DNA of 64,000 nt, from the NCBI GenBank assembly GCA_036245525.1, contig BTPG01000001.1, positions 223,845,656 through 223,909,655 of the forward strand, read 5' to 3'. The notes below the pieces were generated by a model. That model was not told the origin of the DNA. It did no database searches and saw only the letters and a program-made list of their open reading frames with translations. This DNA comes from Semisulcospira habei (lineage: Eukaryota > Mollusca > Gastropoda > Semisulcospiridae). Shown here in pieces: positions 10,022 through 56,447 of the stretch. Position 1 is the first letter of the stretch. Every line of letters begins with the position of its first letter. A program made the position numbers and the translations under genes.

Positions 10022-11174
10022 AGAGATGTGCAAATGAGAGAGTACATCGACTCCTAAATCAATAATGCCGTATCGATAGTTCTAAATCAGGGTAAATTAC
10101 GTACGTAATTACGTTACTGTCCAGAATTTCCAATCTCCCGTTATCACAGTTGGCGTTCCTGAGAAATTGCGACTACACAGAAGAATGTAGCCGATTCACT
10201 CCAGGTAATATTATATGTCGGTGTTTAACTGCGTCATTGACTTGAAACGGTTAGAACACACCCCCCCTCCCCCCCCTCCCACACACATCCTGTACACGCC
10301 GTCTCACCATCCACCCCTTACCCTATACACTCCCCTACATCCTGTACACGCCACCCCACCACCCACCCTTTACCCTATACCCCCTCCACACACACACACC
10401 CACCCCCCTACCCCCACACCCCACCCCACCCCACCCTACAAAGCCCGACACACTCACACTTCACAAAGGCACCCACCCCACCCTCCACACAGGCACCCCC
10501 CACACAGGCACACACAACATACCAGGCCAAATTATTCCGTTCTGTGTCAACGCTTCAAATTCATGTCACTATGTCACTAGGACAAACTTTTTATGTGGGA
10601 CAAATCTTGAAAATAGGTTTTTCTCCAAATATAGATCACCAGGTCATTCCTAAATAATTAGGACACGCAAAGTTAGTAGTAGAATAGAGAAATTTTTTTT
10701 TGTTTTTGTGTTTCGACGTCTGACAAAGTGTGGAGAAAAATATGTTGTTGTTTTCATTCCAAGCACACATCCGGCAGACCAACCTACGACGCATTTGAAA
10801 TTGAAAGACAAAACCCATAATCTACTCCCAGTGAGAGACCTCAGTGATTCAAAGTCACTATACACGCACCCTGTTTACGAGTGTTTTAGATCAACAAATC
10901 ATGCGAGAAGAGAATGGGCATGCCTGAAATCGGGTGCCTGTATCTGTCAGTACCGGATCAGGGACACCAGCTATCACGTGATTGAGTTTATTGCCTTGCA
11001 ACCGGGCCAGAGCAGGAAGAGAATCAAGCCAGACAAGCTTTTGCGTAGTCATTATTACAACACTTGCCGTAGGGTGAGTTTACTAGATTGTGTCCCTTTC
11101 ATGACCAGGAAGGTGTGCTTGAAATCGGTAGTGAAACGGATACCTTTTTATTCTCAGTGGGGACGACCCTGTAC
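10022..11174 (+). repeat. P1 left terminal inverted repeat
   Basis: Matches the inverse of 26956-28501 over its length, with scattered substitutions and length differences in low-complexity tracts. It contains a perfect palindrome AATTACGTACGTAATT at 10095-10110, a C/A-rich minisatellite (about 10258-10520) built on CACACCC(A/C) units and TACCCTATAC motifs, and an open frame of over 130 codons in its inner part. Confidence 0.9.
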
Positions 11175-11175
11175 A
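10708..11175 (+). CDS. Open frame inside P1 left terminal repeat, doubtful gene
   Basis: An open frame of more than 130 codons whose counterpart in the right repeat (about 26950-27334, minus strand) also stays open. About nine amino-acid differences and no frame breaks separate the two over that stretch. It contains a basic segment (QPGQSRKRIKPDKLL) and a C-x5-C-x-C cluster. No family recognised. Identical frames in inverted repeats can persist simply because the repeats are homogenised, so coding status is open. There is no convincing start context like that of the other element genes. Confidence 0.25.
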
Positions 11176-11290
11176 ATACACCTTTCATGCCCAAGCTTTT
11201 GCGTAGTCATTATATAACACCTGCCGTGTGTGTGTGGGTGAATTTATTAGAATGTACCCACCCCTTTCATGACCAGATAGGCATGCATAG
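11035..11290 (+). repeat. Imperfect tandem duplication at inner end of P1 left TIR
   Basis: A unit of about 90 bp starting AAGCTTTTGCGTAGTCATTAT and ending CTTTCATGACCAG occurs at about 11035-11112 and again at about 11193-11275. The second copy lies outside the part shared with the right repeat. Confidence 0.6.
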
Positions 11291-11327
11291 TGTTTTGTAC
11301 ACACAGTTTATATATTGTGTTTTAAAA

Positions 11328-11933
11328 ATGAACTTAATGACACTCGACCCACACTGTGGCTTATTTGTTGGTGCCACGGGCTGTGGAAAAACTGTATTTG
11401 TACTTAATCTATTACAAACAAGATACATTCATCATTTTGAAAACATTGTGATATTCTGTCCTACTGTCAAACACAACAAAGCTTATCACAACCGTTCATT
11501 CATTTGGACTGACAGCAACATTTACTTAGTTGACCCTGAGAAAAAACTGAACGACTACCTGCATTATTTTTACAAGCAATTTGAAGGACAGCCAACCCTG
11601 TTCATAGTCGATGACTGCTCTGCAGATAAGGATATTGTTAAGAAGAGAAACACACTGGCAGAACTGGCCTTCAGTGGCAGACATGCAAACATTAGTGTAT
11701 GGATTCTCACTCAAAAATATAATGCTGTACTGAAAGATTTTCGTGAGCAGTTAAAGTTTATCTGTTTGTTTTACTGTAAAGATCGTGACAGCTTTGAAGA
11801 CTGTCTTAGAGAGAACGATGTCATCCCCAACAAACACGAACGAGACATTGTGAAAAACAAACTGAAATCGACTAAGCATCTAAAGCTTATTTTAAAGACA
11901 GATCAGCCCACAGGGTATGGATTAGTGAATTAA
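11328..11933 (+). CDS. ATP: Packaging ATPase, A32/FtsK-HerA type (P1)
   Basis: 201 residues from the ATG that directly follows TTTTAAAA, the start context shared by most genes of the element; the frame is open further upstream but that part is terminal-repeat DNA. Walker A is GATGCGKT at residues 15-22. Walker B is LFIVDD with aspartates at about 95-96, followed by a long arm with ILTQKYNAV (sensor-like). Family knowledge: Polinton and large DNA-virus A32-like ATPases translocate the genome into preformed capsids. It is intact here. The homologue in P2 is split by an insertion. It reads rightwards, first in the row ATPase-X-Y-polymerase. Confidence 0.9.
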   Translation: MNLMTLDPHCGLFVGATGCGKTVFVLNLLQTRYIHHFENIVIFCPTVKHNKAYHNRSFIWTDSNIYLVDPEKKLNDYLHYFYKQFEGQPTLFIVDDCSADKDIVKKRNTLAELAFSGRHANISVWILTQKYNAVLKDFREQLKFICLFYCKDRDSFEDCLRENDVIPNKHERDIVKNKLKSTKHLKLILKTDQPTGYGLVN

Positions 11934-11960
11934 TTTAGCATTATGGTTTGTCTTTAAAAA

Positions 11961-12308
11961 ATGACAGACAGACAAACCATTGATATCACAGACTGCTTCA
12001 AAGATGTTGAGTGCATTTATGACTTTAAAACGCATGTTAAAAAGCCGTTTGAGCTCAGTATAAAACTCTCAACACCGACACTGATAAGCATGGCATATAA
12101 TGTGACTTTGGGGTATTCTGAATCTTTTCCATGTTATGAGTACGAGACTGTTGATCTTAGGACACATAGCTTTAGAGTTAATGATGCTAACTGCGACTGG
12201 TTTGAGGCACTGTGTAAACACATATTCAGACAACTATGTAAACTACATGATTATATTGAAGACGTTACAGTGAATAAAGTGGTATTACACCTACAGCGCA
12301 AGCAGTAA
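11961..12308 (+). CDS. Small conserved Polinton protein X (P1)
   Basis: 115 residues, function unknown. It begins 27 bp after the ATPase stop, with GTTTGTCTTTAAAAA directly before the ATG. Shared pattern with Y and with the P2 homologue: IDITDCF near the N-terminus, VDLRTHSF in the middle, then W-F...L-C, and VNKVVLH at the C-terminus. The fold looks mixed alpha/beta and soluble. Position between ATPase and polymerase is conserved in both elements. Confidence 0.75.
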   Translation: MTDRQTIDITDCFKDVECIYDFKTHVKKPFELSIKLSTPTLISMAYNVTLGYSESFPCYEYETVDLRTHSFRVNDANCDWFEALCKHIFRQLCKLHDYIEDVTVNKVVLHLQRKQ

Positions 12309-12319
12309 TATTTTTATAT

Positions 12320-12343
12320 TATTATTTTGTCGGACAAATAAAA
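12320..12343 (+). promoter_or_regulatory. Palindromic TTGTCGGACAA start-proximal motif (gene Y)
   Basis: TTTTGTCGGACAAATAAAA ends at the ATG of Y. The core TTGTC-G-GACAA is an 11-bp hyphenated palindrome. The same string occurs before P1 polymerase and, inverted, before P2 polymerase. It is probably an element-specific promoter or factor site (inference). Confidence 0.5.
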
Positions 12344-12664
12344 ATGACGCTCAACACAATTGATGTTACAGACTGCTTTAGTTATATCCAGCACTTTGAT
12401 CAGTTAAGAACAGATTTCAAACAACCGGACATAACACCAGTATCAACACAGGAGATGATTTATGTGTCATATCAAATGACTTTAGAAATATTTGAGGAGT
12501 TACCATTTGTAGAGTACATGCCTGTTGATCTTAGACACATACCTTTTGAGGTTGATGATCACTGGTTTGAGTCAGTGTGTGAGCAAATATTCAGACAACT
12601 ATGTGAACTGAATCTGTTTATTGTAGGTGTTGCAGTCAATAAAGTGGTATTACACAAGGTGTAA
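12344..12664 (+). CDS. Small conserved Polinton protein Y, paralogue of X (P1)
   Basis: 106 residues. It is clearly a tandem duplicate of X: IDVTDCF, PVDLRHIPFEV, HWFESVCEQIFRQLC and VNKVVLH align with X in the same order. P2 has only one member at this place, so X/Y duplicated in the P1 lineage or one was lost in P2. Immediately upstream is TTGTCGGACAAATAAAA, the same motif that precedes the polymerase gene. Function unknown. Confidence 0.75.
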   Translation: MTLNTIDVTDCFSYIQHFDQLRTDFKQPDITPVSTQEMIYVSYQMTLEIFEELPFVEYMPVDLRHIPFEVDDHWFESVCEQIFRQLCELNLFIVGVAVNKVVLHKV

Positions 12665-12675
12665 TGTTTTCTATT

Positions 12676-12699
12676 TATTATTTTGTCGGACAAATAAAA
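12676..12699 (+). promoter_or_regulatory. Palindromic TTGTCGGACAA start-proximal motif (polymerase, P1)
   Basis: TATTTATTATTTTGTCGGAC continues into AAATAAAA and ends at the polymerase ATG at 12700. It is nearly identical to the copy before gene Y. The homologous spot in P2 (about 46109-46140, minus strand) keeps it. Confidence 0.5.
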
Positions 12700-15600
12700 A
12701 TGACGGACAATTCCCAAAGCTTGTCAAGCTTAAGAAACGTGTTTCACAGAACAGATTTGCCTATATCCAACACTTACAGTGTTTATGAATCAATAGAAAG
12801 GTCTTTTTTGGTCATACAAGATAATCTTCTTTCTGGTAGTGTAAAGATTCAGATTGTTGCGAAAATAGGATTTACCAGGGTAGGTGGTGAAGTGATTGTT
12901 TCATATATCTCGACAAGACAACACACAGTTAATTCAAAAGAGGAATTGGAAAAAGTGTTTAGAGAAAGACTGTTGCCTGACTTTTTAGAAGCAATTGACA
13001 GAGCAAAAATGCAGGGATCTGGTTGGCATGAAGGCCGTGTACATGAACTACAACTGAAGCAGTCAAGATATCATCCTATTTTAGGCAAATCATGGCTGCC
13101 CCTACCAACTGAGGTTGCAGACAAAAAGGCTGTCGTCAATGTTCAGAACAAAGATAATTTCTGTTTCATGTGGTGTGTGCTTGCCAAACTGCATTTTGTA
13201 AAAACAAAACCTGAACGTGTATCTAACTATGCCAAATTTGTAAATGAACTCAACTTCAGTGGCATAGATTTTCCTGTTAAGGTGGAGGATATAGATCTGT
13301 TTGAAAAACTAAATCCTGGGATATCTGTGAATGTGTATGTATGGGATAATGAGTCTGAGAACAAGTTACAACCAATTAGAGTGTCGCCAATTGCCCCAAC
13401 CTACGGTCAGTCAGAAGATAAGCATGTTGATATGTTACTAATAAGCTCTGGCTCAGGTGATAACTTTCACTACACAATTATTAGGAGTATGTCACGACTA
13501 ATTCACAACCATGTATCAAAACACAATGGCAAACAGGAAGTATGTAAAAGATGCTCACAAAGGTTCTCCTCTATAAAAGTGGCACATAAACATACCCAGC
13601 ACTGTAGGTCGGCTGATGACATTCAAACAATACTTAGGTATCCAGATCCTGGTAGCAAGGTATATTTCAAGAACTATGTTAATCAGCAAAAGCTGCCATT
13701 TGTAGTGTACTCTGATTTTGAATCACTGGTTGTTCCATACGAGGGTCCTGTTCCAGAATCATTACCAAAGACTGTAAAATTGAGTGATCAAGTGGTGTGT
13801 TCTTTCGGACATATTCTTGTTAGGTCTGACGGCCAGCATACAGAACCTGTTATCTACAGGGGTGAAAATGCAGCAGCTGAGTTTTTAGCAGAAATGAGAC
13901 AACTGTATAGTCAGGTAGTACAGTATTTGGAAAAGTGTCAGATGCCTTTGGTGATGACAGAAGAAGACAAACAGAATTTTGATACAGCAGTGATGTGTTG
14001 GATTTGTGAACAACCTTTAGGAGGTTGTGATCAACTTCTGAAGGGTGATAAAGTTCATGACCATGACCACATAACTGGGCGTTACAGAGGTGCTGCCCAT
14101 GGTGATTGTAACTTGAAATTAAAAATAGATCCCAAGGCATACAAACTGCCTATCTTTTTCCACAATCTCAAAGGGTATGATTCACATATTATCATGCAGG
14201 CTGTGGATGAGTCTTACAAAAAACATTAGTTGTATTGCCCAGACAACTGTAAAATACTTGACTTTTAGGCTGGACAACAAATTAGCATTTTATGACTCCA
14301 TGCAACATTTGTCCTTAGGGCTTGCTAGTCTCGCAGAAGGACTGACTGAGTTTCCAACAACAAGTAAATATTTTGAGCCTGAGTTAATCAAGAAAGGAGT
14401 CTATCCCTATGAGTACATTGATCAATGGGTTGTTTTTGAAGAAAGGAGACTGCCTCCAAAAGAGAAATTTTATTCTACACTAACTGGCAAAGGTATTTCT
14501 GACTCTGATTACAAACACGCACTTGATGCATGGGGTAAACTAGGGTGTCAGACAATTGGTGACTACCATGACCAGTACTTGAAAGCTGATGTTTGCTTGC
14601 TTGCAGACGTATTTGAAAGTTATCATGAAAAGGGTTTGTTACACTACAGTCTTGACCCAGCTTGCTACATAACTAGTCCTGGCATGACATGGGATTCATT
14701 TTTGAAATCCAGTAAGATATCTATAGACCTGTTGTCGGATCATACGATGGGTGAAATGGTGGAACGTGGATTGAGGGGAGGCATTAGTATAGCTGCAAAC
14801 AATTATGCCAGAGCCAACAACACATATCTTGATGACCTTGGGTTTGACCCCTCAAGGTCAAGGTCATTCATTACGTACCTTGACGCTAATAACCTTTACG
14901 GATTCGCAATGTGTGAGTTATTGCCCTTGAAAAACTTTTGTCTGTATGATTTGTCACAGTATGACATAACACACACGGCTGTTCAGTTCTTCTACAAACC
15001 GACACATTTAGTTAGGGAGTGCCGCGCTAGCATATCAAGTGGCGAGCTGACCTAGTTACACGCATTCCGATGGGCATCTGGTACCGCCTGATAGTAGGCC
15101 TTCTTTATGCTTACTATTTTATGTGGGCAGAGTGCCAAATTTGTGCAGGCTTTAAACCTTGACTGTGCTTTCAAAATACTTTTGTTTGGATTTTCAATGA
15201 GTGATATGTGTTAGTGTAACATAGTGCTACAAGTAAGTGTTTTTCTTTTACTGGATAGATTTACCTGTGATTTTTTATAGAACGTTTTATAGACCAGCAT
15301 GTGAGTGTATTTCGCCCACCTTTAGAATGGAGTCTGACACACAATATTCCTATTCAAACCACATGGAACGATTGAGTAGTTTGTGCAGGATTTGCCATGC
15401 AGAGCGAGTAAAAGGCAAAGGAAAGACGAACTTTAACACTTTAAACTGTGTGTTGATTATGTAGACGATCTTTCTGCTTTTCATGGTATTGACGTATGTA
15501 CAGATGAAGAAGACAAACACCTGAAAGAAATGTGTAGAGAGCCGCCGGTAACAAGTACACGCAGGACTCAGTCTCTCTGTGAAATAAATTGTCTTGAGAC

Positions 15601-17733
15601 TGATACATTTTAGCCTGCACCGGCTGTTCTGTGTTTATCTAATTTACGCATATCAAAATAGCTATTTGATCACCATTAAGAGTGTTTATTATTTTCACTG
15701 TGGGTGTCCCATCCGATTTGTTAGTAAAGTGGATTGCTCTTTACATTTTATAAGATTTAGTGGAATGCTAAAGACAACTTCACCTATACAAAGTGTGCAA
15801 CTGACACTGCCACTAACCCTGCATATAAACTGTGAATTATTTGAAACATTTTCACTGCCTCCGAAATCAACTACGTGTGGAGATTACGTTAACCCAAGAA
15901 CTTTCCGTCTGTCTAACACTGGATTACCAATGACACATCATCCCATTTCAGGACCCACTGAGATTGCAAGGTAAATCTATCTGACATTTTGAGTAGTGCA
16001 TAGCGTAGTGGCTGTATACGATGATCGCTGGCCTGAACCATAATTTTCGCAAAAGTACTTTGCATGAGTTAGAACAGTTGAAAGACATGTCATTTGCAAC
16101 AGATTTGCGTTGTCTTCACGGTAAACTGCGCGCCGGTTGCCTGTCTTCTAGTCCGTTGCATGCATTGCTCATCTTCATTTTCCTAAGCATGTCTAGTGTC
16201 TACAGAAAGCTTATTTTCTTAGCTTTTAAGTGTATGTCTTAAATACAAGATACATTCAGTACAGCTTAAACAACACTCCGTAAATGACCGGTACCATTAA
16301 AATGTATCCCGTGTGGCACACGGTCAGCGCTGAGCATGTACACAGAGAGCGTGCTCGCGTAAAACAGTGACAAGAATAGCGCGACTATAGTTGCACAGCC
16401 GTAACAGATTGCGCTCAGCTCTGTGCTGCCAGCCGGCGGTATTAACAGTGGTGACACGCTGCGCGGCTCCTTATCTTACAGCGCAGGCACGCGCGCGTGC
16501 CTCGAAACTAAATGGGAGGCCTTGAACAGCTGTGCACAGTTAACAAACTATATTATGACTCATGACCGGAATGATGCAAAGGGTTGGATCTTTGAAGTAG
16601 ACCTGGAGTACCCACACCATCTACATGATTACCACAATGATTATCCGTTGGCTGTTGAGAAAATGAGTATGACGGGTAAAAAAGAAGACTTGTGCCAAAT
16701 CTGAATGACAAATTCAATTACGTTTGCCACTATCGCTTGTTACAGTTTTACATCAGACATGGGTTAGTACTAAAGAAAGTTCACAGAGGCATTCAATTTG
16801 AGCAAAGTGCTTTCATGAAAGATTACATAATGAAGAACACAACATTGCGTGCGAGGGATGGCAACACTGCATTTGACAAAGACTTCTTAAGCTTATGAAC
16901 AATGCCTGTTTTGGTAAGACAATGGAAAATCCTCATCACCGCAAAGATGTGAGACTGGTCACAACTGAATCAGGTGCTATTAAGCTTACAGGCAAGCCAC
17001 AGTACACAGGGTACAAAGAGTTTCATCCATCATTGTATGCAGTGTCACTCAAAAAAAAGATTGTCAAACTGGACAAGCCAGTATTCATTGGTATGGCAAT
17101 ACTTGAGTTGTCAAAACTGTTGATGCTTGAATTTTATTATGATTACTTCAAACCAAAGTATCCTGAGTGCCGCCTGTTATACACTGACACCGACTCTATG
17201 ATCATAGACGTGCCTACTGAAGACTTTTATGAAGACATGAAAACAGAGTTGCATATGTATGACACGTCTGATTACCCTAAGGATCACCCGCTGTTTAGCA
17301 CACAAAATAAGAAAGTGCCTGGGAAATTTAAAGATGAACTCAATGGAGTGCCTATTGTTGAGTACGTTGGACTGAGATAAAAAATGTATTCTATACTGCA
17401 CCAAAAGGGAAGTCAGTCAAAAGCCAAAGGTATAAAAAAAAAACAGCCATAAAAAATAAAGACATTCGCCATGAACATTACAAGCAAGTATTAGATGGAG
17501 AACTGATGTCGGATTATCCAAACAAGACACTGAGGTCAAATAGACACAATATTGAAATGATCCAAACACATAAAAAGTCACTTGCAGTTGGGGACACAAA
17601 ACGTGTGTTTTACACTAAGAAAAAGGCTTATGCACCTGGGCATTATGCGCTTAAGTTATCTGAAGAAATAGCTGATGAACTGGTTGATGAACTAATCGAT
17701 GAATTAGTTGATGAAATGGTTAAAAATGCGTAA
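12700..17733 (+). pseudogene. POLB: Protein-primed DNA polymerase B, decayed and interrupted (P1)
   Basis: Family-B, protein-primed type. In order it has: an N-terminal region with NKDNFCFMWCVLAKLH; a C2H2-like CKRCSQRFSSIKVAHKHTQH (about 13530-13600); exonuclease motif DFESL (about 13713); an HNH-like CWIC...DHDHITGRYRGAAHGDCN (about 13990-14110); HNLKGYDSH; YLKADVCLLAD; motif A LDANNLYG (about 14880); motif B NNACFGKTMEN (about 16897); and motif C YTDTDS (about 17178). Lesions: frameshift near 14225, a 1.56-kb transposon at 14974-16534, a small deletion near 16690, frameshift near 16888, a nonsense codon at about 17378 and a poly-A length change near 17438. A seven-residue insertion relative to P2 lies in the HNH segment. 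Its 3' end overlaps the convergent integrase gene. Confidence 0.9.
14974..16534. mobile_element. Transposon inside P1 polymerase, N-RAG/Chapaev-like
   Basis: A 1.56-kb insertion flanked by CACA on both sides (14970-14973, 16535-16538). Removing one copy gives the same local length as the intact P2 gene. Ends are 12-bp inverted repeats CAC(G/A)GCTGTTCA. Inside (about 15330-15600, one frame change) is SLCRICHAERVKGKGK, then HGIDVCTDEEDKH and MCRE. This resembles the zinc-binding CRIC...FGIDV...D...H...C arrangement of the RAG1 N-terminal region that is carried by molluscan N-RAG-TP/Chapaev transposons. Four-base duplications and CAC termini also fit Chapaev. No catalytic core seen, so it is non-autonomous. 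Assignment is tentative. Confidence 0.5.
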
Positions 17734-18686
17734 CAGTGTCTGGAGGAATAATTTGTAATTCTTCTCTAACAAATGCCCTCTGAGGCGCAGGCTCATACAG
17801 ATAATAAATCGATGCATTAGCACCAGGAACTATTTTTTTTTTTTATATTGTGAACGGACGTAGACCATATTGGATCAGTTGCCCTACGTCTGACGTCATT
17901 CTCGGCCTCATCAGGTTGATACAAATATCTTACCTGTTTTGTAAACAAGCTTGTGTCTGGAGGTGTTGTTTTTATTTCTGACCCTGATGGCATTGTTTTC
18001 AATTTAATAGCATCAACAGGTTTAGGGTGACCTTCATTATTCATTGCTTTTATCACAGATGGTAATCTCTTATCCCACTCAGTGTTACTTGCGTCATGCA
18101 TGAGTTCCTTAGAATACTGATAGCTGAAAAGTCTCTCCGATAATTGCTTGTTAAAGTTTTCAACAATAGCCTGTGATCTGTGCACGTCCGGTATGCCTCG
18201 CCGCACTAGCACTCCATGTTTTGCAAATAACTGATTAACAGCGCCTTTAAATTCAGATCCATCATCGACTTGCACAAGCCTGGGAAATTTTAAAGGACCA
18301 CGACTATATATCTTTGTTAACACAGTGGCCACTGTACTAGCATTCTTGTCAGTTATGGTTTCGGCATCCTTATACCTTGAAGCTATGTCAACAACAGTTA
18401 ATGCATACTTGTATCGTTTCTTTCTTATTGTATCGTGTGGTAGGAACAGGAGATCCATTTGATGGGTGTCATTAGGGATAGTGTTTACAAAATGAGGTCT
18501 TGTTATTTTTCTTGGAGCAGGAAGATATATTTGCCAAATTGCTTGTTTTTGTAGCCACTGTTTTATTTGTTCGAGTGTGACATCCCCACCAACAGCGGTA
18601 TGCAATTTTTCTATTGCAGTTTTTCCTTTCCAGTAGCCAATAGGGGAGTAATATATTTTTGATAGTTTAGCTCCGACGTCGATCAT
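17720..18686 (-). pseudogene. INT: DDE (retroviral-type) integrase, C-terminal frameshift (P1)
   Basis: Homologue of the intact P2 integrase. It keeps all three catalytic residues: D in THQMDLLFLP, D in VDDGSEFKGA and E in AIVENFNKQL. An extended adenine run (12 instead of 8, near 17831-17842) shifts the frame before the last 30 or so residues. The original stop lies at about 17720, inside the end of the convergent polymerase gene. It starts 20 bp before the end of gene D (overlap). No chromodomain is visible. The core may be functional if the C-terminal tail is dispensable. Confidence 0.85.
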
Positions 18687-19101
18687 TTCTTCTAGCAATA
18701 AAAACTCCTGTAAAATATACTAATGTCATTCCTACTAGAACAAATATTATTTCTCCATTTCTTTGTTCTGGGCTTGGTTGGTAATAGTCGCTAAGTTTTG
18801 GTTGTGGGATGGTCATGTCTTCGCCAGTAACAAGAAAATATTCTTTGATCGCGTCATCGACATTTGAAAATGTATGCTGTGATGACCTTCAAGCCTGAGT
18901 TTTTCATTGATGAAATCAAGTTTTTCTATTCTTTGCTTCTCATAATCTTGTTGAGCTTGTGCCAGTTTTTCAGATGCCTCATTGTGACGCTTCATTTCTT
19001 CTGCAGATTCCTCTACCCATTTTTGAAAAGAGATAGTTTGATCCACTGAAAGCCAATGCATTAACAACGGCCCCACCAATCAAAATAGCTATAGTTGCCA
19101 T
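18667..19101 (-). pseudogene. Membrane/coiled-coil protein D, frameshifted (P1)
   Basis: Homologue of the intact 143-residue P2 gene at 41345-41776. The central helical segment ESAEEMKRHNEASEKLAQAQ is conserved. Frame changes near 19030 and 18850 separate the N-terminal hydrophobic segment and the C-terminal transmembrane segment. It overlaps the integrase start as in P2. Confidence 0.75.
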
Positions 19102-19110
19102 ATTTTTTAT

Positions 19111-19341
19111 TTACATAGAAACATTTTCTGGAATAATTCCTTGCTTGACGAGAAAGTCTTTTGTGGCAATCGATGCTGTGACAACTGCTACTAGTTTAGC
19201 GCTGTCTTCGAAGTCTAATCTACTCAAGTCTGCCGATTTCATTTTGAGAAGACTTTTCCCCAGCATAGAATAAGCAACGGTTAGTCCACTTATTACTGCA
19301 GAGTGATAGACGAGGTTCATTATGTTCTTTGTGTCGCTCAT
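19111..19341 (-). CDS. Small hydrophobic protein C (P1)
   Basis: 76 residues, intact in both elements with few differences. It contains a hydrophobic helix (LVYHSAVISGLTVAYSMLG) and a second moderately hydrophobic stretch (KLVAVVTASIATKDFLV). Probably a small membrane protein of the virion or of assembly (inference). Function unknown. It lies between genes B and D in a tight row of same-strand genes. Confidence 0.75.
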   Translation of the reverse strand: MSDTKNIMNLVYHSAVISGLTVAYSMLGKSLLKMKSADLSRLDFEDSAKLVAVVTASIATKDFLVKQGIIPENVSM

Positions 19342-19377
19342 TTACTTATGCTACAAAAATTAAAATAATAAATTTAT

Positions 19378-21336: not shown

Positions 21337-21366
21337 TTTTTTAATGGCAAATATTTTGTATTTTAT

Positions 21367-35593: not shown

Positions 35594-35596
<3 letters not shown>

Positions 35597-46140: not shown

Positions 46141-46212
46141 AAAATTATATAATAAAAATAACACTTTTTTGACTGTAAATCCTACAAAACAGATTTGTTT
46201 ACTCAATCATCA

Positions 46213-46548: not shown

Positions 46549-46870
46549 TTTTATAGACAAACCCAAAAGATAAATTAATTTACTAACCCATACCCTGTGG
46601 GCTGATCTGTCTTTAAAATGAGCTTTAGATGCTTGGTTGATTTCAGTTTGTTTTTCACACAGTCTCGTTCATGTTTATTTGGTATAACATCGTTTTCTCT
46701 GAGACAGTCTTCGAAGCTGTCACGATCCTTACAGTAAAACAGACATATAAACTTTAACTGCTCACGAAAATCTTTCAGTACAGCATTATATTTCTGAGTA
46801 AGAATCCATACACTGATTTTTGCATGTCTGCCACTGAAAGCAAGTTCTGCCAGTGTGTTTCTTTTCTTAA

Positions 46871-47572
46871 CTCACTCCACCCGGATCACCGCGATCCCGG
46901 TGATGGCCTGCACAACGCTTGCACACTGATCACCGGGATCGCGGGTTGTGAAGTTGGCCGCCTTCTACAAGAACTGGGGATTACTGAATACGAAACTAAC
47001 CTGCCTAGTGTGCAGCTCTGTTTTCGTACAATGACCCTCATTCCTATTTTTATCACTAGGCCTCACAGTTACTGAAGTAGAGCGTGCTTTTCGAACATAC
47101 TAGCTTTGCTTACATTTGCGAAACAACATGGCGTTTCTGTGTGCTTCACTCACCACAAGAGCGCAAAGTAATCGTCAATTTACTGTCAGAGAAGTGATAG
47201 AAATCATCCAGATTGAGGATTCGGATGCAGAAGAGGCTGCTGAAGACAGTGATAGCGATTTTGAACCAGCAGAGAGTGAGAAGAATGCATCTGATTGAAC
47301 TGTTCGGTGGGTCACAAGTGAACTGATAACCGATTAAACTTGGAAGTGCAGTGTGAAAAATAAGTGGTATCTTTACTATGCTCCAGAATATACATTTTTG
47401 GGGTTAGTAACTCAAAATTTTGTATATGCATGCACCCATTTACTAATCAACTAACCTGAAAATTGTATTTACATTTGTCAGAAAGTTTTTTTTTATGATT
47501 TTTTTTTCTAACCCATTGAAACAGCCAGTATACAGAGCATTGCTAACGAAAAAACAGCCAGTGCTGATTGAG
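46871..47572. mobile_element. piggyBac-like non-autonomous element in P2 ATPase
   Basis: 702 bp between two TTAA sites (46867-46870 and 47573-47576), inserted exactly where P1 ATPase has GTTAAG. Ends inward: TTAACTCACTCCACCC and, inverted, TTAACTCAATCAGCACTGG. Subterminal GC-rich inverted motifs (ATCACCG(C/G)GATC) lie at 46886-46945. Contains a short open frame (47128-47298) ending EDSDSDFEPAESE, like the acidic N-terminus of piggyBac-derived transposases. The catalytic part is missing. Confidence 0.7.
47128..47298 (+). pseudogene. piggyBac transposase N-terminal remnant
   Basis: 56 codons from ATGGCGTTTCTG. Contains QFTVREVIEIIQIEDSDAEE and an acidic serine/aspartate cluster, then a stop. 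No catalytic aspartates. Interpreted as the retained 5' end of a deleted transposase gene. Confidence 0.4.
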
Positions 47573-47911
47573 TTAACAATGTCTTTCTCTGCAGAACAGT
47601 CATCGACAATAAATAAAGTTGTCTGACCTTCAAAATGTTTGTAAAAATACTGTAGGTAGTCATTCAGTTTTTTCTCAGGGTCGACTAAGTATATGTTGCT
47701 GTCAGTCCAAATGAATAAACGGTTGTGATAAGCTTTGTTGTGTTTTATCGTAGGACAAAATATTACAATGTTTTCAAAATGATGGATGTATCTTGTTTGT
47801 AATAAGTCAAGTACGAATTGAGTTTTCCCACACCCTGTGGCACCAACAAATAAGCCACAGTGTGGATCGAGTGTCATTAAGCCCTGGTTCATTTTAATAC
47901 ACAATATAATT

Positions 47912-49193
47912 TTAATATATGTGTCCACTCAGTCTGCTTTCTGCAATATTGAGTTGTGCGTCATATATCAGGTACAAATATATATTTATGGCTGCAGCAG
48001 TTTCAACCATCTTTTGTATCTGAATTGTAATCCCATCACTACCATTCTCAACAGTTCGACCTGACCCATGAAGGTAATCGTCGTCTGTACTACGCAGGTC
48101 TAACCACAGTGCATATTTGTTTGTCAGGTATTGACCAATCCTAACGTCATACAGATGTAGATCTTTGCACGCAATGTTTGCTGGTTTATCTCTAATCCTT
48201 CCTCCTGCAAAATACTTTGTGATCTCATCGTAGTGTTGATAAGGTAACATTCCAGACGCGTACACTTGATTAGGATGGCCTTCGATTGTGCAGGACAAAT
48301 GTGTAATCTTAGGATTGTAGAATTTTTCTGAATCCCGTTTGTATGGACTCACAGGTTCAACAAACAACATAAAAATACCTTTCAGTGACCTAGCAGGTGT
48401 GTTTAAGTTTATGTTCCACATTGGGTCGCTTTTGTCTTTGGGTATTAAACACCCTAATCACCCTGTCATAATAAATTGGTAGTCTTGACTGATACTGATT
48501 TTGTATGAGTCTGGCTAGTTCAGTGTGTGTGACAATTTCATATTCCAAGGAAATGTTAGAGATCTTATATGTTGCACTAAGATCAGATGATTTAATAACT
48601 TTGGAGTAGTCATTGAAGGTTAGTTCAAAACTCAGACGGTCATTCAGTGCTCCTTGATAATAAGGCAGATGAGCTGTTAGGATTTCAAACTCAAGTGGAA
48701 TGTAGAATCTGGATCCATATGTTTCGGCCATTATAACATCCATGGCTGTATTAGTTACTTTATCTCCGGCGTCGATTCGAAGTTTACCAACATTATCTGG
48801 CTGTATGCCTTGGTAAATACGGTCTTCTCGTTCTTCTCTTGTTAGCCAAAGGTCTTTGTAACAGTAGAATACATCTGAGTCGTCAAGACTAAACACTTCC
48901 TGTCCTTCAAGATTTACTTTAATAGTTCTAACAATTGCTCTGCCAAGATTGTTAACTAGTGTTCTGTTCACGTCTGCGTCTGATGATAGTTCAATATTAA
49001 AAGCAAGGCGTGCAGTGCCAGGAACAATAACGTCACTGGGACCTAGGTTTGGAAACTTGACTGTAAGTGTTTGATTCTGGTCTATGGTACTTGGATTGTT
49101 TGTGATGACGATTGATTGTCTTATGCCCTTAACACCCAGAGGCTCACGTAGTTTTCTGTATGGGTCTAACTTTGATCCGTAAGACTGTGTCAT
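47912..49193 (-). pseudogene. MCP: Major capsid protein, frameshifted (P2)
   Basis: Homologue of P1 25517-26800, about 425 codons. Start MTQSYGSKLDPYRK at 49193 after TTATTGTGCATAATAAAA. A small deletion near 48410-48440 shifts the frame after YYDRVIR. Both halves are otherwise open and well conserved (VPGTARLAFNIELSSD; ILTAHLPYYQGALNDRL; AQLNIAESRLSGHIY). It is directly upstream of the ATPase and diverges from T. Confidence 0.85.
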
Positions 49194-49233
49194 TTTTATT
49201 ATGCACAATAAAAAATAATAAATTAATAAAACA
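49194..49233. promoter_or_regulatory. Bidirectional capsid/T promoter (P2)
   Basis: 40 bp A/T-rich spacer between the divergent capsid and T starts, equivalent to P1 25476-25516. Confidence 0.55.
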
Positions 49234-50445
49234 ATGGCAGCGGGAGGATTTAATCATGAAGATTTTGAAATGGATGACATGAATGACTATGATACTGGTG
49301 CAACAGATATGACTGGAATGGTAACTAGTTCTAGTATGTATCATGAACTATTAAAAGACATAGTAAACTCATTTTATGACAGTGTTGGTGTCCACCCAGA
49401 TGTAATAGATCCTAATCAGTTTGAATATGATAAAGGACACTTATTTGTAAATACAGACAGAGGGAAAATAAATCTAACACATAAAAATAATCCTTCTAAG
49501 TTTAGAGCTTTAAGTACAATTAAAGGTGAAGTCGGTGGTAACTCTGGGTTGGCAAGATACCTTGGTATTGGAGGGTCTCCTGTTCCCCCAAGACTTGTTA
49601 GTGTGCTTCACGACACGCAAACAAAGTTGCCAACGGGGCAAGAGATTGAAATGGCACCAATAACAAGCCTACCAGAAATAGCAAACACAGTGATACAAGA
49701 AACTTCATTTACTGAAGGACAAATAAATGATGTTATGAAAACAATAGATGATCCACCTTTGTCAATGAGGGAGATTATGGGTTTGGATAAATCACTGCAG
49801 ACAATAAGAGGTGAGATGGTAAATAATTTAGCCAAACTAGGAGAGCTTGATAAACACATAGAACGTGAAAAAGAGAAACTGGCTACCGCAGACACAGAAA
49901 TGAAAGAAAGAATTCAACACAGATTAAATGATTTGCAGATAGAAAGATCAGGAAGGTTAGAAGCGATTAGTATTGGGAGACAAAAACTGAAAACACAAGT
50001 CAACAGGATTAGAGAAACTATTAAAAAAATACTTCACGAAGACACTACTCTGGCTGAGAGACTTAAAACACTTTTCAGAGAACAGGGTATCACAATTGCC
50101 AGTTTAATTACAGCTCTGGGGTTTATTATCAGTACAGTTGTGTTGGCTGTCTCCGGGGGTGGTGGTGGTGGACCACTGCCTCCAGCACCACCAACCCCAG
50201 TCCCCACAGATCCAAAAGACTTACAGTCGTGGGTAAAGAAACAACTGTCTCACATATCAGACTTGCTTAAGAAATTGGCTCTGAAAGCAGTAGACGTGTT
50301 ACCCAATTTAATTGGCACGGTTGTCAGTTGGTTGATTAGTACTACAGCAAAGGTAGTTGGGTTTATGGCAGAACATGTGTGGATCTTTCTGGTTACAGTA
50401 GGAGGGTTAATGGTGGGTTATTTAATGAAACAGATAAAGAAGTAA
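49234..50445 (+). CDS. Membrane protein T with coiled coil (P2)
   Basis: 403 residues, intact. Same architecture as P1 T: acidic N-terminus MAAGGFNHEDFEMDDMNDYD, charged helical middle (LGELDKHIEREKEKLATAD), hydrophobic helix IASLITALGFIISTVVLAVS, Gly- then Pro-rich linker, and a C-terminal hydrophobic hairpin ending KQIKK. Overlaps S tail-to-tail by 24 bp. Conservation of the overlap in both elements despite protein divergence shows both frames are real. Confidence 0.8.
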   Translation: MAAGGFNHEDFEMDDMNDYDTGATDMTGMVTSSSMYHELLKDIVNSFYDSVGVHPDVIDPNQFEYDKGHLFVNTDRGKINLTHKNNPSKFRALSTIKGEVGGNSGLARYLGIGGSPVPPRLVSVLHDTQTKLPTGQEIEMAPITSLPEIANTVIQETSFTEGQINDVMKTIDDPPLSMREIMGLDKSLQTIRGEMVNNLAKLGELDKHIEREKEKLATADTEMKERIQHRLNDLQIERSGRLEAISIGRQKLKTQVNRIRETIKKILHEDTTLAERLKTLFREQGITIASLITALGFIISTVVLAVSGGGGGGPLPPAPPTPVPTDPKDLQSWVKKQLSHISDLLKKLALKAVDVLPNLIGTVVSWLISTTAKVVGFMAEHVWIFLVTVGGLMVGYLMKQIKK

Positions 50446-51705
50446 AACCCCTAATCCAGTGAGACCTATTACCAATGCAGTTCTCTCTGACTCATGTGTG
50501 TTTGATGACGGTGCTGGTGCTGGTGATGGTGATGGTGCCAGTACAGGTGTGGGTGTCGGGGCTGGGGCTGTTATTGACATTACTGGTGTTACCAGGGCTG
50601 CCTGTACGGGTGGTGATGTTACTGGTGCTGGCATTATTATTGACTGTAAATGTGTGTTTACTGATTGGTTGAGTCCTAATTTCTGATCACGACCAGCGAC
50701 AATGATTTCATTATTATAATTTGTTATTGTCCCCATTTGGAGTTGAAGGTCAGATGGTAGCATGTATAACCCAATGCCAACTACAAAGTCAACTTTTGAT
50801 CTAGCATATCTGAGAACGTCTTGGTAACGTTGTATGCTTGATGGTAGATCGACTGTTGAGTTGATTGAATCTTCTAGATTAGCAAGAAACTGTTTTTGTG
50901 CTTCAAATTTACCACTCCCGTTTAAAATATTCGATTTTGTTAGTGATTGTGCTCCTAGTAAACACCAGACATATGTTCTGATAGACTCATTGACGCGTTC
51001 GACTCCTGCTTGAGTAAATCCGTCACTCTTATCTAAGACAAATGTGGTCCAGGCATTAGACTGTTTCTGTTCAATTGAGCCTAACCACACTTCAGATTTT
51101 GATGAGAATGAAGTGTAACCAGGGTAATAATCTTGAGGGTATTGTCTGTGACTCATAGCATAATACAATGTTCCCATGCCTTTGTGATCATCAAGTTTTT
51201 GTGTAAAGTCATACTTTGTACTGATGTTAAATTCATTACAGATCCGTTCAAATGCTTTCAAATCCATGGGATTGTTAAACCTGTTGAAACTGGATTCAGT
51301 GGGTAATGGTGTATGCAGTTCTGACAGTATTCTTCTAAGCTGGTAATAAACATGAAAACGATAGACAGACTTAATCAGTTTGTTTGGGTGATTCAAATGG
51401 TCTGTAAAAGAAATGCCACAGCCTGTAGTTGAGCATAGTATAGCAAAGTTAAGTTGGTTTTGAAACATCTGTAGTGGGCTTGAAGACCACTTTCTTGCAG
51501 TTGAGTCATCTGTAATTGGAGGGTTTAGGTAATGCTCATAAGGATTTGGCACTTTCACTTGAAATAAATCTCCTTCAGACAAAGCTATATCAAGCTGATT
51601 TAGTTGAATTATTTTCTGGTCATAAGTTGGTGCAACATTATACTTGGCATCCACGTTAAATTGAAACGCGTTTACAATGGCAATTGTTGGTGATTTAAAT
51701 TCCAT
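50422..51705 (-). CDS. Tail-anchored structural-type protein S (P2)
   Basis: 427 residues, intact. Starts MEFKSPTIAIVNAFQFNVDA. The globular part is nearly collinear with P1 S. The stalk is longer and richer in Pro/Ala (PAPTPTPVLAPSPSPAPAPS), so the difference between the two proteins is concentrated there. Identical C-terminal helix ALVIGLTGLGVLLLYLF. Divergent from R with a 25-bp gap. Confidence 0.8.
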   Translation of the reverse strand: MEFKSPTIAIVNAFQFNVDAKYNVAPTYDQKIIQLNQLDIALSEGDLFQVKVPNPYEHYLNPPITDDSTARKWSSSPLQMFQNQLNFAILCSTTGCGISFTDHLNHPNKLIKSVYRFHVYYQLRRILSELHTPLPTESSFNRFNNPMDLKAFERICNEFNISTKYDFTQKLDDHKGMGTLYYAMSHRQYPQDYYPGYTSFSSKSEVWLGSIEQKQSNAWTTFVLDKSDGFTQAGVERVNESIRTYVWCLLGAQSLTKSNILNGSGKFEAQKQFLANLEDSINSTVDLPSSIQRYQDVLRYARSKVDFVVGIGLYMLPSDLQLQMGTITNYNNEIIVAGRDQKLGLNQSVNTHLQSIIMPAPVTSPPVQAALVTPVMSITAPAPTPTPVLAPSPSPAPAPSSNTHESERTALVIGLTGLGVLLLYLFH

Positions 51706-51730
51706 TGTGCTTTTTTATGTGATAATAAAA

Positions 51731-52446
51731 ATGTTTATAACCTTAACAAATCTTGACACAAGCAAACCAGTGTGGTTAACTAATGGGATTGATAATCGTG
51801 ATGGTAACAAGGCTGTGGCTATCCATGAAATGTTTTATACAGTAAAGTGGTTTAATGTAACGGATGATGAAAATTATTCTGTAAGTGGAACTCTTGATGG
51901 TATTGAGAAGGTGATACTTTACGAGCTGGGTATTATGACTTTTGTACTTTAGCTGAATGGCTTCAAAATGAATTTAAAATTAAAGCAACTTTAAACCCAG
52001 CTAATTTACTTGTTACAATTGAATTTCCGAAAAGTGGTCAGTTTTCTTTATCAATTAGTCTTTTATTATTACTTGGATTTTTAGGTAAAAAAATAACACA
52101 TCCAGATGAAGATTGGTCACAATCAGTTGGTGGTCTACTATCACCAAAAAAACCAAGAATAACTGGCAGATATCCTGTTCATTTGTCAGTACACACAGTG
52201 CTAAATGTTCATTTGAAAGAACTGAACACTACTGAAAATGTACACAATGGAAAGCCTTCAACTTTGTTAAGATGCTTGCCGACTGGAACTGCCCCATATT
52301 GTGAAAGTGTGGTTGCTAGATTTCCTAATTTGCAGTTTAAGAAATTAGGTTCTAGTTTCTTTGAGTCACTGAGTATATCTGTAACTAATCAGGATGACAA
52401 ACCAGTTCTTATGCATGATTTTAGTGTAGTGTTAGAAATTAAATAA
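51731..52446 (+). pseudogene. Conserved protein R, candidate minor capsid, frameshifted (P2)
   Basis: Starts MFITLTNLDTSKPVWLTNG. A lost base near 51911 breaks the frame after GTLDGIEK; the rest of the homologous sequence stays recognisable to the stop at 52444. The position of the break differs from P1 R. See P1 R for features and alternatives. Confidence 0.7.
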
Positions 52447-52466
52447 TTTTATTTTTGTTTATAAAA

Positions 52467-53345
52467 ATGAGTGGTCTTGGTCCAAAGCCTAGAATCATAC
52501 CAGTTGCGTGTCCGGTAACAGAGTTGAAAGATTTGGCAGATGTCCAGGATTTTGAGAAGGAAGGAGAAATTGGAGAAATATATGGTTTTGAACTTGATTC
52601 AAATTTCATGTACAAGAGGAAAGTAATTGTTGACATGAAAGACGGTGAAAAACAGATTCCTAAACTTGGTCAGCTTCGTGATGTTACTGTACCTACTCCA
52701 CCTGTAAATAATGCGCCTTACAACTTAATACATGTGGGTAGTAAGTGGGTTGTTTCACCTGTACCGGCACCACCACCCACAATTGACTGGGACATAAAGA
52801 TTGAATTTATTAGTCCTTATGTATACACTGATGATGAAGGCGCCTTAGTGTTTAGGAAGGTTGTTAATTCTGGGCCGCTTATTGTAAGCCTTGTTCCAAG
52901 TTTTGCCCTAGACAACAATAGCAGAGAAAAACTGAAAGTTGAAAATTATGAGAGACGGCGATATCTTCTTACAACTAGAAAGGGTAGATCAAATACTTCT
53001 GTTGTGTTTATGCCAGCAAGCTTAGTCGTGGCTAGAGAAGTGACAATAGTATTTGAAATTATCATGAAATCTGTTGCTTCTGCAAAAGAGGCAAATATAG
53101 CACAAGGAATTAAACTTACATGGAATGAAACAGTAACAGAATCATCAAAGGTCTTTATTGCCATTACAAAAAATAATGATGTTATTAATGTTTCAAGCAG
53201 TATTCCCGCTGTCAAGGTGGTGGTCGACAAAACAACTTTTGTTCGTCTAACTTACATAAACCTTGAACACATTGATCTTGTTGCATTTTATTATGCCAGC
53301 AAATTGTATACTTTTGAAGAGTTGCAAAATGTAATTGCTGATTAA
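52467..53345 (+). CDS. Beta-rich conserved protein Q (P2)
   Basis: 292 residues, intact. ATG at 52467 after TTTATAAAA; an in-frame TTG 12 bp upstream is not favoured. Starts MSGLGPKPRIIPVACPVTEL and ends YTFEELQNVIAD. Strand-rich, proline-rich at about 75-105 (VPTPPVNNAP; PVPAPPPTIDW). No membrane segment. Between R and P on the same strand, like P1. Function unknown; a virion component by neighbourhood. Confidence 0.8.
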   Translation: MSGLGPKPRIIPVACPVTELKDLADVQDFEKEGEIGEIYGFELDSNFMYKRKVIVDMKDGEKQIPKLGQLRDVTVPTPPVNNAPYNLIHVGSKWVVSPVPAPPPTIDWDIKIEFISPYVYTDDEGALVFRKVVNSGPLIVSLVPSFALDNNSREKLKVENYERRRYLLTTRKGRSNTSVVFMPASLVVAREVTIVFEIIMKSVASAKEANIAQGIKLTWNETVTESSKVFIAITKNNDVINVSSSIPAVKVVVDKTTFVRLTYINLEHIDLVAFYYASKLYTFEELQNVIAD

Positions 53346-53365
53346 AAAAATATTTGTCATAAAAA

Positions 53366-54111
53366 ATGGTGAACTTGTATCCACAAATACCACCTAAGCA
53401 GCTTGAGCCTATTGAGCGTGATAAAACATTAAAGGCAGATTCATTCCGTTTAATGAATATTACAGAAGCGTTGAAGTATTTGGAAGAAGAACAAGCAAAA
53501 TACTCGAGGTGTAAACGCCGTTACAATACGGTTTTCAATTCTGTACACAACACATCAATGGCCATGGGGGTGGTTTCGGCCGGATTATCTGTAGGAGGTA
53601 TAACTCTGTTTGCAACGGGGGTGGGAAGTGTCGTAGGAATTGCTGTTGAAGCTGTTGGCCTTGCCACAAGCCTGGCATGCTTTGGTATGGAAGCCCTTAA
53701 CAAAATTTTTTATACTAAGTTGCAGAAGCATGAAGCATTAAGTACGCTCGCAGCAGCTAAGCTGACGAGTATGAAACTTATTATTAGTAAATCTTTGGAA
53801 GATAATGAAATTGACGATAACGAATTTAAAAGAGTCCAGGATGATTTGGCCAACTATAAACAACAAAAGTCTGAAAAACAACAAAAGTCTGAAATACAGA
53901 ATAAGATGCGTAGTCAGGCTGTAAATGTTGAAGAGCTAAAGAAATCTTTTTTAGAACAAGGAAAAAAGATAGGCGTAGAAGAAACTATGAAAAAAGTTCG
54001 AGAACTTACAAGCAAGTAACGATAGGTTTTGTTAATCAATTATTTTTGTCATACACTTCGCAAAGAGATGTCATGCCTTTCACGTCTGCCCCACCACCAA
54101 ACCACTATTGA
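53366..54111 (+). pseudogene. Membrane protein P, late-domain tail lost (P2)
   Basis: 217 open codons from MVNLYPQIPPKQLEP, followed by a frameshift (adenine run six instead of seven, near 53993). The original reading continues recognisably to 54111. It keeps LYPQIPP and the glycine-rich hydrophobic stretch (VVSAGLSVGGITLFATGVG). The first residues no longer have PPLY, and the tail reads TSAPPPNHY, so PSAP and PPEY are absent even before the frameshift. Contains a local duplication QQKSEKQQKSE. Confidence 0.8.
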
Positions 54112-54580
54112 GAAAAAAGTTTTTATATTGTCCTTGTAACTTGGAAATTCTGTCCAAGTAAGTTGTGACTTGGGTCCAAAAAGTTGTAAGTTCTTGTTTT
54201 AAGAGACTTATAAGAATTTGTTTTAAGTCACTTTAAAATCTTATGACAATTAACTTATAAGAACTTGAGGAGGTAACTTAAAAGCTACTTGTCAGTTGCA
54301 AGTAACTTATAGGTTACCTTATCATGTACTTGTAATTTTCTTTTTTTCAGCCATAGGGTGTTTTGCTTTATAATAGAAGACATAATTAATCTCTAGAAGT
54401 GCATTGTTGTTAATATGAGACACAGTGTTTGATGTTTAGGCATGAAATCAGTTTAAAAAAAATCTTTCAAGCTGGCTTAGATGCCTCACTATCTCTATCT
54501 CTAAAATTTAAAAAAAAAAGTACCAATTTTTCTTTCTCTGAAATTAAAAGTGAGGTGTTTAGGCATATCTGATAGCAAAT
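54112..54580. promoter_or_regulatory. AT-rich palindromic spacer after gene P (P2)
   Basis: 54115-54350 is homologous to the P1 A-P spacer: CTTATAAGAA, AACTTATAAGAACTTG, AAGTAACTTATAGGTTACC. In P2 it no longer precedes gene A, which is 14 kb away at the other end. 54350-54580 is AT-rich with no assignable feature. Confidence 0.5.
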
Positions 54581-54850
54581 GAAGCAATCAATATATATTT
54601 GTATCTGATTTATGATGCGCAACTTAACATTTCTGAGTGCCGACTAAGCGCTCACATATATTAAAAGTATTCACTTAGCTTTTGAGTTGTTTTGGTTTTA
54701 ATCCTTCACAGCCCATTTTGAATAAGAAAAGCACCGAATCCGAACGAGTTAGCAGACACGTCACGCTTGTGCGGTAAACACAGACTAAACTGATAATAAA
54801 AGGCGTCGTCCCACTGAGGTAACCGTTTCAACCTTCCTAGTCATGAGCAC
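54581..54850 (+). pseudogene. Capsid gene 3' end plus P1-type inner end sequence (relic)
   Basis: 54581-54664 matches the last 27 or so codons of P1 capsid (ATTTATGATGCGCAAC... to the stop). 54665-54850 matches the P1 sequence after it (CACTTAGCTTTTGAGTTG, ATCCTTCACAGCCCATTTTG, CACGTCACGCTTGTGCGGTAAAC, GTCGTCCC, CCTTCCT(A/G)GTCATGA). It is a second, partial capsid end in P2, oriented as in P1 towards the right terminus. The full P2 capsid gene is elsewhere. Confidence 0.85.
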
Positions 54851-56202
54851 TGTAAAATCTTTCAGGCAAAACTAGCCTATCACACACCACCCTTTGTCAG
54901 TGCATGTGTCACAAGTCCTGTTAGGGCTGGCCTGCGCAGAAGTCAACAGTAAACACCCTTTAGTCTACTCACAAGAAGGGCCTTATCTTAAAGCTTTCTC
55001 TGTTTTCCAACAGGTTGCAAACTCATTTTGGCTCTGTGTCTGTGAAGACTTCATGGTGTTTATACATAGAGTGGGTTTTTTTCCCCCCGCCCACAATCTT
55101 TAGTCAATGCTTGTTATGTTCTTATAAACACAGATCTAAATAAGTGAGGGGTAATGTATATAATTACTGAATTTATGACGGGGCTCTCTCTGTGTAAGAA
55201 AAAAAAATTGTGGGCGTGTGGAGCCGCTGCCTATTTGAATATAATGAAGTAAACCATATAGTGAACACATAATTTAAAAAATTATAAATTTCTTTTTGAA
55301 TATTGTGTAGGGTCTGGTACATATTTAAAAAAATTAAAAATTCCTTTATGAATATTGTGTTTGGTCTGATACATATTGAGTCAAGTCGGGTGAATACCGA
55401 GACAAGTTCGGTGCATAACGATCTTTCAGAACAGGTCCAATCATAACGCGCATGAACGAAGGTGGCTGTTTTTCAGAACCAGCCTGAGGTTATGTATGTA
55501 TTTCCTTGAGCGCCCTGTTGATTGAGTGGCCATGTTAGTGTGTATTGTATGGTGAAGTGCGAAAGTAGGTCAGTGAATCAGCGCGCTGTTGTTCTTGCCT
55601 ATTGTGTATTGTGGCATTGTATGGTTGAGTGGGGAGGTAGGTGGGTGGTGACGTTTAAGGGAGGGGGGGGGGTGTATTACGCAGTTTGCTTAGAGGGCAT
55701 GTAGCGATGAATCAGTGCACTGTTGTGTCGCCGTGTGCTTGTGCGAGGTTGGTGGGAGGTGCCTTGGAGTGGTGTGAGGGGCTTTGTAGGGTGGTGGGTA
55801 TGTGTGTGTGTGTGTGTACAAGGTTGGTGATGGGGGGTGGGGGTGAGTGGCACAGAGAGAGAGAGAGAAAGAGAGAGAGAGACACACACACTATTTGGAC
55901 ATAGAGGACTATTGTTTACCATGGTGGTATAAACAGGAAGTATTCTCAGGAAGACCAACTCTGACAGCATTGAGTGGTGGGTGGCGTGTACGGTAGTCAC
56001 TATTTCTCGGGAAGATATTTTAACTAGCCTTTTGTTTCCAAGGGGTCGGGGGACCTGACTGGGCAGATAAAGCTGTTAAATGTATTTGGTCAAAGCAAAG
56101 TGAAGACACCAAACACACACGGCGCGCTGTGAAGGGAGTGTTGTGTACAATCGTATTCAAAATATAATCTCACTGTGATCATTGATAGATTAATTAGTCT
56201 TT
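54851..56202. other. P2 right-end non-coding region, partly P1-TIR-like
   Basis: G/T-rich low complexity (about 55620-55880) includes GGCTTTGTAGGGTGG(T/G)G, and 55970-56010 has GGGTGGCGTGTAC then ATTTCTCGGGAAG. Both resemble the P1 right terminal repeat minisatellite and its outer flank. No gene seen. Confidence 0.45.
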
Positions 56203-56447
56203 GTTTAAAGCAGTCAATGACAGCATTAATTATTTAGGTGGGAGTGGGGGATCTGCCTTAATACTCGCGGGTTGGTAGCTGATCAAAAAACGTAGCTTGA
56301 ATGATTTCTGGAGTGGAACTAAAATGGCTAGGTAATAAAGGTATTGGCGGTAAGTGCTGGAGTTCGTTTGTCTAAATACGGAGAGGATCAAATAAATCTA
56401 TAGATTGGGGGGAGGGGTGCCCATCAACTGTCCACTTTACTATCTCT
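56203..56447 (-). repeat. P2 right terminal inverted repeat
   Basis: Inverse of 39939-40175 with a few short insertions. Ends CTGTCCACTTTACTATCTCT, followed by CCATC. Confidence 0.9.

Follow-up and report, generated by a model that had tools for sequence, protein, structure and literature searches.

Linear genomes that replicate by protein priming are thought to require their ends in one fixed place. Among Polintons (Mavericks), the closest described systems are those of vertebrates, for which the accessible part of the account by Barreat and Katzourakis describes two gene modules that point to the centre in most elements, point apart in the cane toad (Rhinella marina) and share a strand in the clawed frog (Xenopus tropicalis) (PMC8097293). 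Judging from the available text of that paper, the toad state would amount to a permutation of the kind reported here (PMC8097293). Here, we describe two complete Polintons, P1 (10022-28501) and P2 (39939-56447), in a window of 64,000 nucleotides (the whole stretch of DNA that was analysed) from the gastropod Semisulcospira habei (GenBank assembly GCA_036245525.1, contig BTPG01000001.1, positions 223,845,656 to 223,909,655). Each has its own terminal repeats and target duplications, and the difference between them is a true circular permutation. We are moderately confident that they are gene-order isomers of one Polinton lineage, in which gene modules were re-set relative to the terminal arms, mostly by inversions, and that P1 arose from a P2-like ancestor through two inversions in place.

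The permutation is seen directly when the window is compared with itself. P1 11311-20295 matches P2 47908-40180 in reverse, in five matches of 84-91% each, and P1 20381-26802 matches P2 54328-47910 in reverse at 82%; the stretches of P1 without a P2 match are 11977-12307 and 14970-16539, the second being an insert. P1 is therefore block A followed by block B, and P2, read in reverse, is block B followed by block A (blocks being distinct from the lettered genes below), a swap of sides that bears out the claim of an earlier note on this DNA that the two orders are the same on a circle. The two elements have the same cyclic gene order and a different end position, as defines a circularly permuted unit, and both start with AGAGAT and finish with ATCTCT. 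On a line with like ends, such a swap of halves is the same as an inversion of each half in place. The features of both elements are given below; genes A-D, P-T, X and Y are lettered as in the earlier note, gene borders were set anew in the present analysis, and the target duplications and element ends of P1 and P2 were read by eye.

10017-10021: left target duplication of P1, GAAGC
10022-28501: P1, in the order arm-ATPase-X-Y-PolB-integrase-D-C-B-A-spacer-P-Q-R-S-T-capsid-arm, with ends AGAGATG...CATCTCT
10022-11188, plus strand: left terminal inverted repeat of P1
11328-11933, plus strand: packaging ATPase of P1 (Pox_A32, E 1.3e-15 on the open reading frame 11187-11933)
12664-17733, plus strand: protein-primed PolB of P1, in pieces, interrupted by the insert at about 14970-16539
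17817-18686, minus strand: integrase of P1 (rve, E 4.9e-11)
19759-20279, minus strand: gene A of P1
20280-20586: A-P spacer of P1, rich in inverted repeats
20587-21336, minus strand: gene P of P1
25517-26800, plus strand: major capsid protein of P1, next to which lies the arm, not the ATPase
26941-28501, minus strand: right terminal inverted repeat of P1, with the N gap 27809-28142 inside
28502-28506: right target duplication of P1, GAAGC
39934-39938: left target duplication of P2, CCATC
39939-56447: P2, in the order end-A-B-C-D-integrase-PolB-X-ATPase-capsid-T-S-R-Q-P-spacer-patch-end
39939-40174, plus strand: left terminal inverted repeat of P2, about 85% to 56200-56447
40196-40717, plus strand: gene A of P2, whose start codon lies about 20 bp inward of the left repeat
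41763-42716, plus strand: integrase of P2 (rve, E 6.9e-11)
42672-45653, minus strand: PolB of P2, main open frame of 993 amino acids
46575-47892, minus strand: ATPase of P2, split by an insert at about 46872-47572
47893-47911: capsid-ATPase gap of P2, 19 bp, corresponding to the site of the P1 ends
47912-49193, minus strand: major capsid gene of P2, with the frame broken near 48390-48457
53366-54019, plus strand: gene P of P2
54581-56093, plus strand: patch, a P1-order right arm within P2, composed of an 86-bp capsid tail, a noncoding stretch and the arm
56200-56447, minus strand: right terminal inverted repeat of P2
56448-56452: right target duplication of P2, CCATC

At the two permuted junctions the details agree with what had been noted before. 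The capsid and the ATPase of P2, said to be about 20 bp apart, are separated by 19 bp from capsid stop to ATPase start, and genes A and P of P1, said to be neighbours, have a spacer of about 300 bp between them (20280-20586). The fold of 20296-20586 beats all 200 shuffles (z -4.0), in agreement with the palindromic nature claimed for this spacer, and the spacer is common, with deletions, to the six other P1-order copies aligned. The terminal repeats of P1 pair as 10021-10380 with 28502-28143 (98%) and 10318-11188 with 27808-26941 (93%).

Both elements carry hallmarks of Polintons, namely a packaging ATPase (Pox_A32, E 3.7e-06 in P2), an RVE-type integrase and AG-type terminal inverted repeats, the last with AGAGAT...ATCTCT also in four further copies. 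For the polymerase, DNA_pol_B_2 matched a P1 piece with E 0.0012, under the family's curated cut-off, as were the Endonuclease_7 matches in both elements. The P2 PolB has 5686 homologues among 8000 scored sequences, and many of the 120 listed carry PF03175. For the capsid, which in Polintons is expected to be a double jelly-roll protein, 3211 of 7577 candidates were homologues, and Capsid_N was found in 19 of 25 aligned capsid proteins (best E 8e-05); the P1 protein itself has no Capsid_N match, and the capsid no sequence match in PDB. No adenovirus-type protease family appeared in the 19 P1 and P2 open reading frames scanned (Pfam, E up to 0.1), a subset from which a diverged protease could escape. 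According to one survey, a protease occurs in 74% of Polintons (PMC4028283), so it is not a strict requirement. Target duplications, read by eye, were found in three further P2-type copies and one further P1-type copy (CGTGAG, GTAGT, CCGGT and GAAGTC), so that 6 bp are duplicated in two of six elements (CGTGAG and GAAGTC) and 5 bp in the other four (P1, P2, GTAGT and CCGGT). The duplication of intact vertebrate Mavericks is given as 6 bp in the accessible part of its description (PMC8097293).

The two orders are not a product of misassembly, a concern of the earlier note, which had also proposed a search for more copies of each order in the same genome. Such copies are present. The assembly searched is the whole genome of the window, 1.98 Gb in 507 contigs; since the searches score the best candidates and list the copies nearest the query, all counts are lower bounds and no census, and every figure of 40 stands for the copies scored, among them the query's own locus. 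The P1 arm-ATPase junction is found in at least 40 scored copies, nearly at full length (285-305 bases, 94-100%), from 3613 candidates at first look; 22 further short matches cover the repeat alone. Capsid copies near P1 number at least 98 in the assembly, and all 20 fetched run into a P1-type arm. Gene A or the spacer adjoins P in seven of ten fetched P1-type copies, the other three (L053, L055 and L067) being uninformative, and seven loci, including the window, combine the arm-ATPase junction with a capsid 11.6-14.3 kb further on the same strand (97 of the 98 capsid places were used).

The P2 capsid-ATPase junction likewise recurs, at 97-100% and short of full length by two bases at most, in at least 40 scored copies, among them the window, and was read in all 20 fetched copies. 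Where the ends of ten P2-type copies were fetched, gene A stands at its P2-order place in eight and P in nine, and the inverted repeats pair left with right in seven. Further, all 13 copies fetched from another list of 98 capsid copies show capsid-ATPase, one of them having been picked for a P1 arm-ATPase junction 11.7 kb away. The class of L071-L102 and L129 was assigned from the capsid-ATPase junction alone, so these may be P2 or the third order described below. Each of the two junction types occurs on all eight large contigs. An assembly artefact is hardly conceivable in view of these tens of recurrences, the N-free permuted junctions, and the matching ends and duplications. What could speak for it is one gap of 334 N in the right repeat of P1 (27809-28142), which has identical flanks of 63 bp, lies away from every permuted junction and may be an unmerged overlap.

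A third order, P3, is present in the same genome and reads capsid-ATPase-X-A..integrase-polymerase, which differs from P2 by a single inversion of the terminal module from A to PolB. Its X-A junction was found at full length in at least 40 scored copies at 97-100%, including L124, whose order is T-capsid-ATPase-X-A-B-C-D. In a second X-A copy, D-integrase is followed by PolB on the opposite strand, and S and T lie about 9 kb to the other side, farther than expected; an insert between the X-A junction and S/T is likely in this copy. Upstream of gene A, among 20 copies fetched from at least 40 listed nearest to the A of P2, 17 have the P2-type repeat and one an X end, two have no assignable upstream DNA, and the P1 spacer is found in none.

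Some side observations concern the same loci. In L125 and L126 the DNA upstream of gene A has no match to the P1, P2 and P3 features tried; these copies may have another type of end or another order. L124 contains an insert of up to about 380 bp at 4348-5586, of which three stretches match L126 at 95-98%; the same type of insert is found in L126, L043, L058, L056, L088 and L092. The genes X and Y of P1 resemble a tandem duplicate (12138-12349 and 12512-12705, 77%), and P2 and L124 have a single such gene.

The gene modules of this Polinton lineage have been repeatedly re-set relative to the ends. The earlier note had held that Polintons are treated as fixed units and that a relocation of ends would be new; this is not supported, as the P3 module inversion recurs and differently oriented vertebrate modules have been published, as far as the accessible text goes (PMC8097293). 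For the direction of change, two metagenomic contigs fit the P3 order. L001, a distant contaminant contig, has the capsid, an ATPase fragment about 20 bp on, A and a reversed PolB, and L103, from the same metagenome-assembled genome (MAG), has the capsid, integrase and a reversed PolB. Taken as a fair outgroup, these contigs would make P3 the old order, with P2 one inversion away from it and P1, which has the X-PolB side in common with P2, derived; the change probably ran from P3-like to P2-like to P1. Scans of viral_contigs with capsid and polymerase found no useful relative, and L002 has open reading frames of a different kind around its polymerase.

Gene modules and ends change their relation, and the breakpoints lie in intergenic gaps. 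P1 is cleanly cut beside the capsid stop codon and keeps, by eye, the ATPase-side part and most of the 19-bp capsid-ATPase gap. A clean cut of this kind would also suit a circular or concatemeric intermediate, in which a P2-type genome was joined up at A and P and then cut anew between the capsid and ATPase genes, gaining new arms at that place. We consider this a real possibility, if an unlikely one. The P1 and P2 orders are identical on a circle, so that a single change is enough, inverted repeats abound in the A-P spacer, and the 54 fetched capsid 3' junctions (20 to an arm, 34 to ATPase, none to gene A or P) include no inversion intermediate. However, with a circle one would expect ends to be lost or left behind where A joins P, and in the A-P spacer of P1 no relic of the P2 left repeat rises above shuffles, nor does any capsid-end relic before the P1 ATPase. 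In the same comparison, the outer repeat of P1 did stand out when set against the P2 repeat (0 of 300 shuffles reached its score), but over a length of only about 36 bases. New arms would also have to be regained, and stretches are common to the arms of P1-order and P2-order copies (L037, L043 and L033 against L027, 76-86% over 140-343 bases). Finally, P3 shows that plain module inversions happen, and inversions suffice. The broader proposal that Polintons of this host pass through a circle or concatemer and take ends at another intergenic gap, so that the end position shifts and three stable orders recombine in one genome, we regard as unlikely.

The inversion of both halves of a P2-like ancestor, which we favour, would have its setting in the extrachromosomal, protein-primed linear replication of free genomes. 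Recombination there would break the DNA in intergenic gaps and shift complete modules against the arms, chiefly by turning them round, through inversion or template switching where the DNA is intergenic or has inverted repeats; the A-P spacer is one such place. To yield P1, both halves would have been inverted in place with the arms staying at the ends. Several points weigh against this account. The intermediates of a two-inversion path are missing from the 54 junctions above, the path requires the same gap to be cut twice, and the copies were sampled by similarity to the queries, not as a random census. Further, the polarity comes from two contigs of one contaminated MAG, of which L001 is degenerate, its capsid row filling 34% of the alignment columns, and L103 has no ATPase match between capsid and integrase.

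Phylogenies were informative on exchange between the orders. In a capsid tree with 18 metagenomic outgroups, the P1-type sequences (five rows from four loci, two rows being the same window locus) are sister to the P2-type sequences (17 rows, classed by junction). The descent of P1 from within P2 was thus not recovered in the capsid tree. A quick capsid tree with P3 and one more row placed P3 among the P2-type, which then no longer formed one group. The trees of genes A and P differ from this. In these two (15 rows each, rooted at the midpoint), short-repeat P2 copies, namely the P2 of the window, L031/L032 and L047/L048, fall among the P1-type, and the other P2-type rows, six per tree, stand apart with full support for the split. 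The nesting is strongly supported by the P tree and less so by the A tree, where the exact place of the window P2 is weakly supported.

The right end of P2 carries further evidence of exchange. Its patch matches the right arm of the P1-order copy L027 (88% over 54581-55741 and 94% over 55854-56093), and past the patch P2 56092-56419 matches the P2-type copy L047 at 88%. The 86-bp capsid tail of the patch agrees with the end of the P1 capsid in 78 of its 86 positions and with the capsid of P2 itself in 68, and 13 of the 18 differences from the latter fall on third codon positions. As this fragment is closer to the P1 capsid and is followed by arm DNA matching a P1-order copy, the idea that it is a precursor of P1 was dropped, and it is best read as part of a captured patch. 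Together with the gene trees, the P1-type arm patch in P2 shows that elements of different order recombined and exchange DNA.

The same patch, as an arm from a P1-order element within P2, could also favour a chromosomal origin of the permutation, in which recombination of nested or tandem Polintons excised a permuted unit with chance repeats at both ends. Nested insertions look common: a Polinton end lies behind ATPase codon 17 in L093, Polinton genes are found in the flanks of L019 and L047/L048, and the capsid end is repeated in L021, all of which suggests nested Polinton insertions at these loci. We nevertheless hold a chromosomal origin to be quite improbable, as it would take two copies with their ends at one and the same gap, together with the loss of the inner ends, and the inner arm edges of P1 have, by eye, neither target duplication nor terminal motif.

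Both orders served functional elements. Between P1 and P2, the synonymous distance (dS) is 0.31-0.72 in 13 of the 16 gene stretches compared, and the ratio of nonsynonymous to synonymous distance is 0.03-0.29 in 14 of 16. Gene B stands out with a dS of 0.11 and a ratio of 0.82 over 44 codons, as do part of R, where dS is 0.16, and the capsid tail, where dS is saturated in the last 28 codons. As most genes have diverged under purifying selection, the two orders diverged largely as functional elements.

The remainder of the window contains other repeats. A direct repeat of about 270 bp (90%) flanks P2 at 37913-38185 and 57273-57544. Dispersed repeats lie at 2427-2560, 5695-5829, 8383-8481, 9334-9474 and 30198-30313, all containing a part that is nearly palindromic (84-92% against its own reverse), and these are perhaps a foldback element.

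With many copies, at least three order junctions and shared genes in one genome, breakpoints, polarity and exchange become workable by sequence alone, and it becomes possible to test directly how the ends of Polintons are kept or rebuilt. The case also warns that gene order is a poor marker for classing Polintons. In titles and abstract openings, with subscription journals mostly outside, no permuted Polintons within one genome were found, which is weak evidence of absence.

Compared with known systems, as far as their accessible descriptions go, P1 and P2 share with Polintons and Mavericks in general the protein-primed PolB (pPolB), rve integrase, packaging ATPase, capsid gene and terminal inverted repeats (PMC4028283, PMC6431247), and differ in that gene order is variable here and no protease was recognised in the open reading frames scanned. 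Teratorn of medaka, in the available part of its description, is likewise a viral mobile element, with two subtypes that a large internal inversion sets apart and with inner copies of end repeats (PMC6431247), but it is a herpesvirus-piggyBac fusion of 180 kb and not a Polinton. The vertebrate Mavericks resemble the present elements in that two gene modules vary in orientation relative to the ends (PMC8097293); in the text available, those states are found in separate host species and no mechanism is given, whereas here three orders are found in one genome, recombining.

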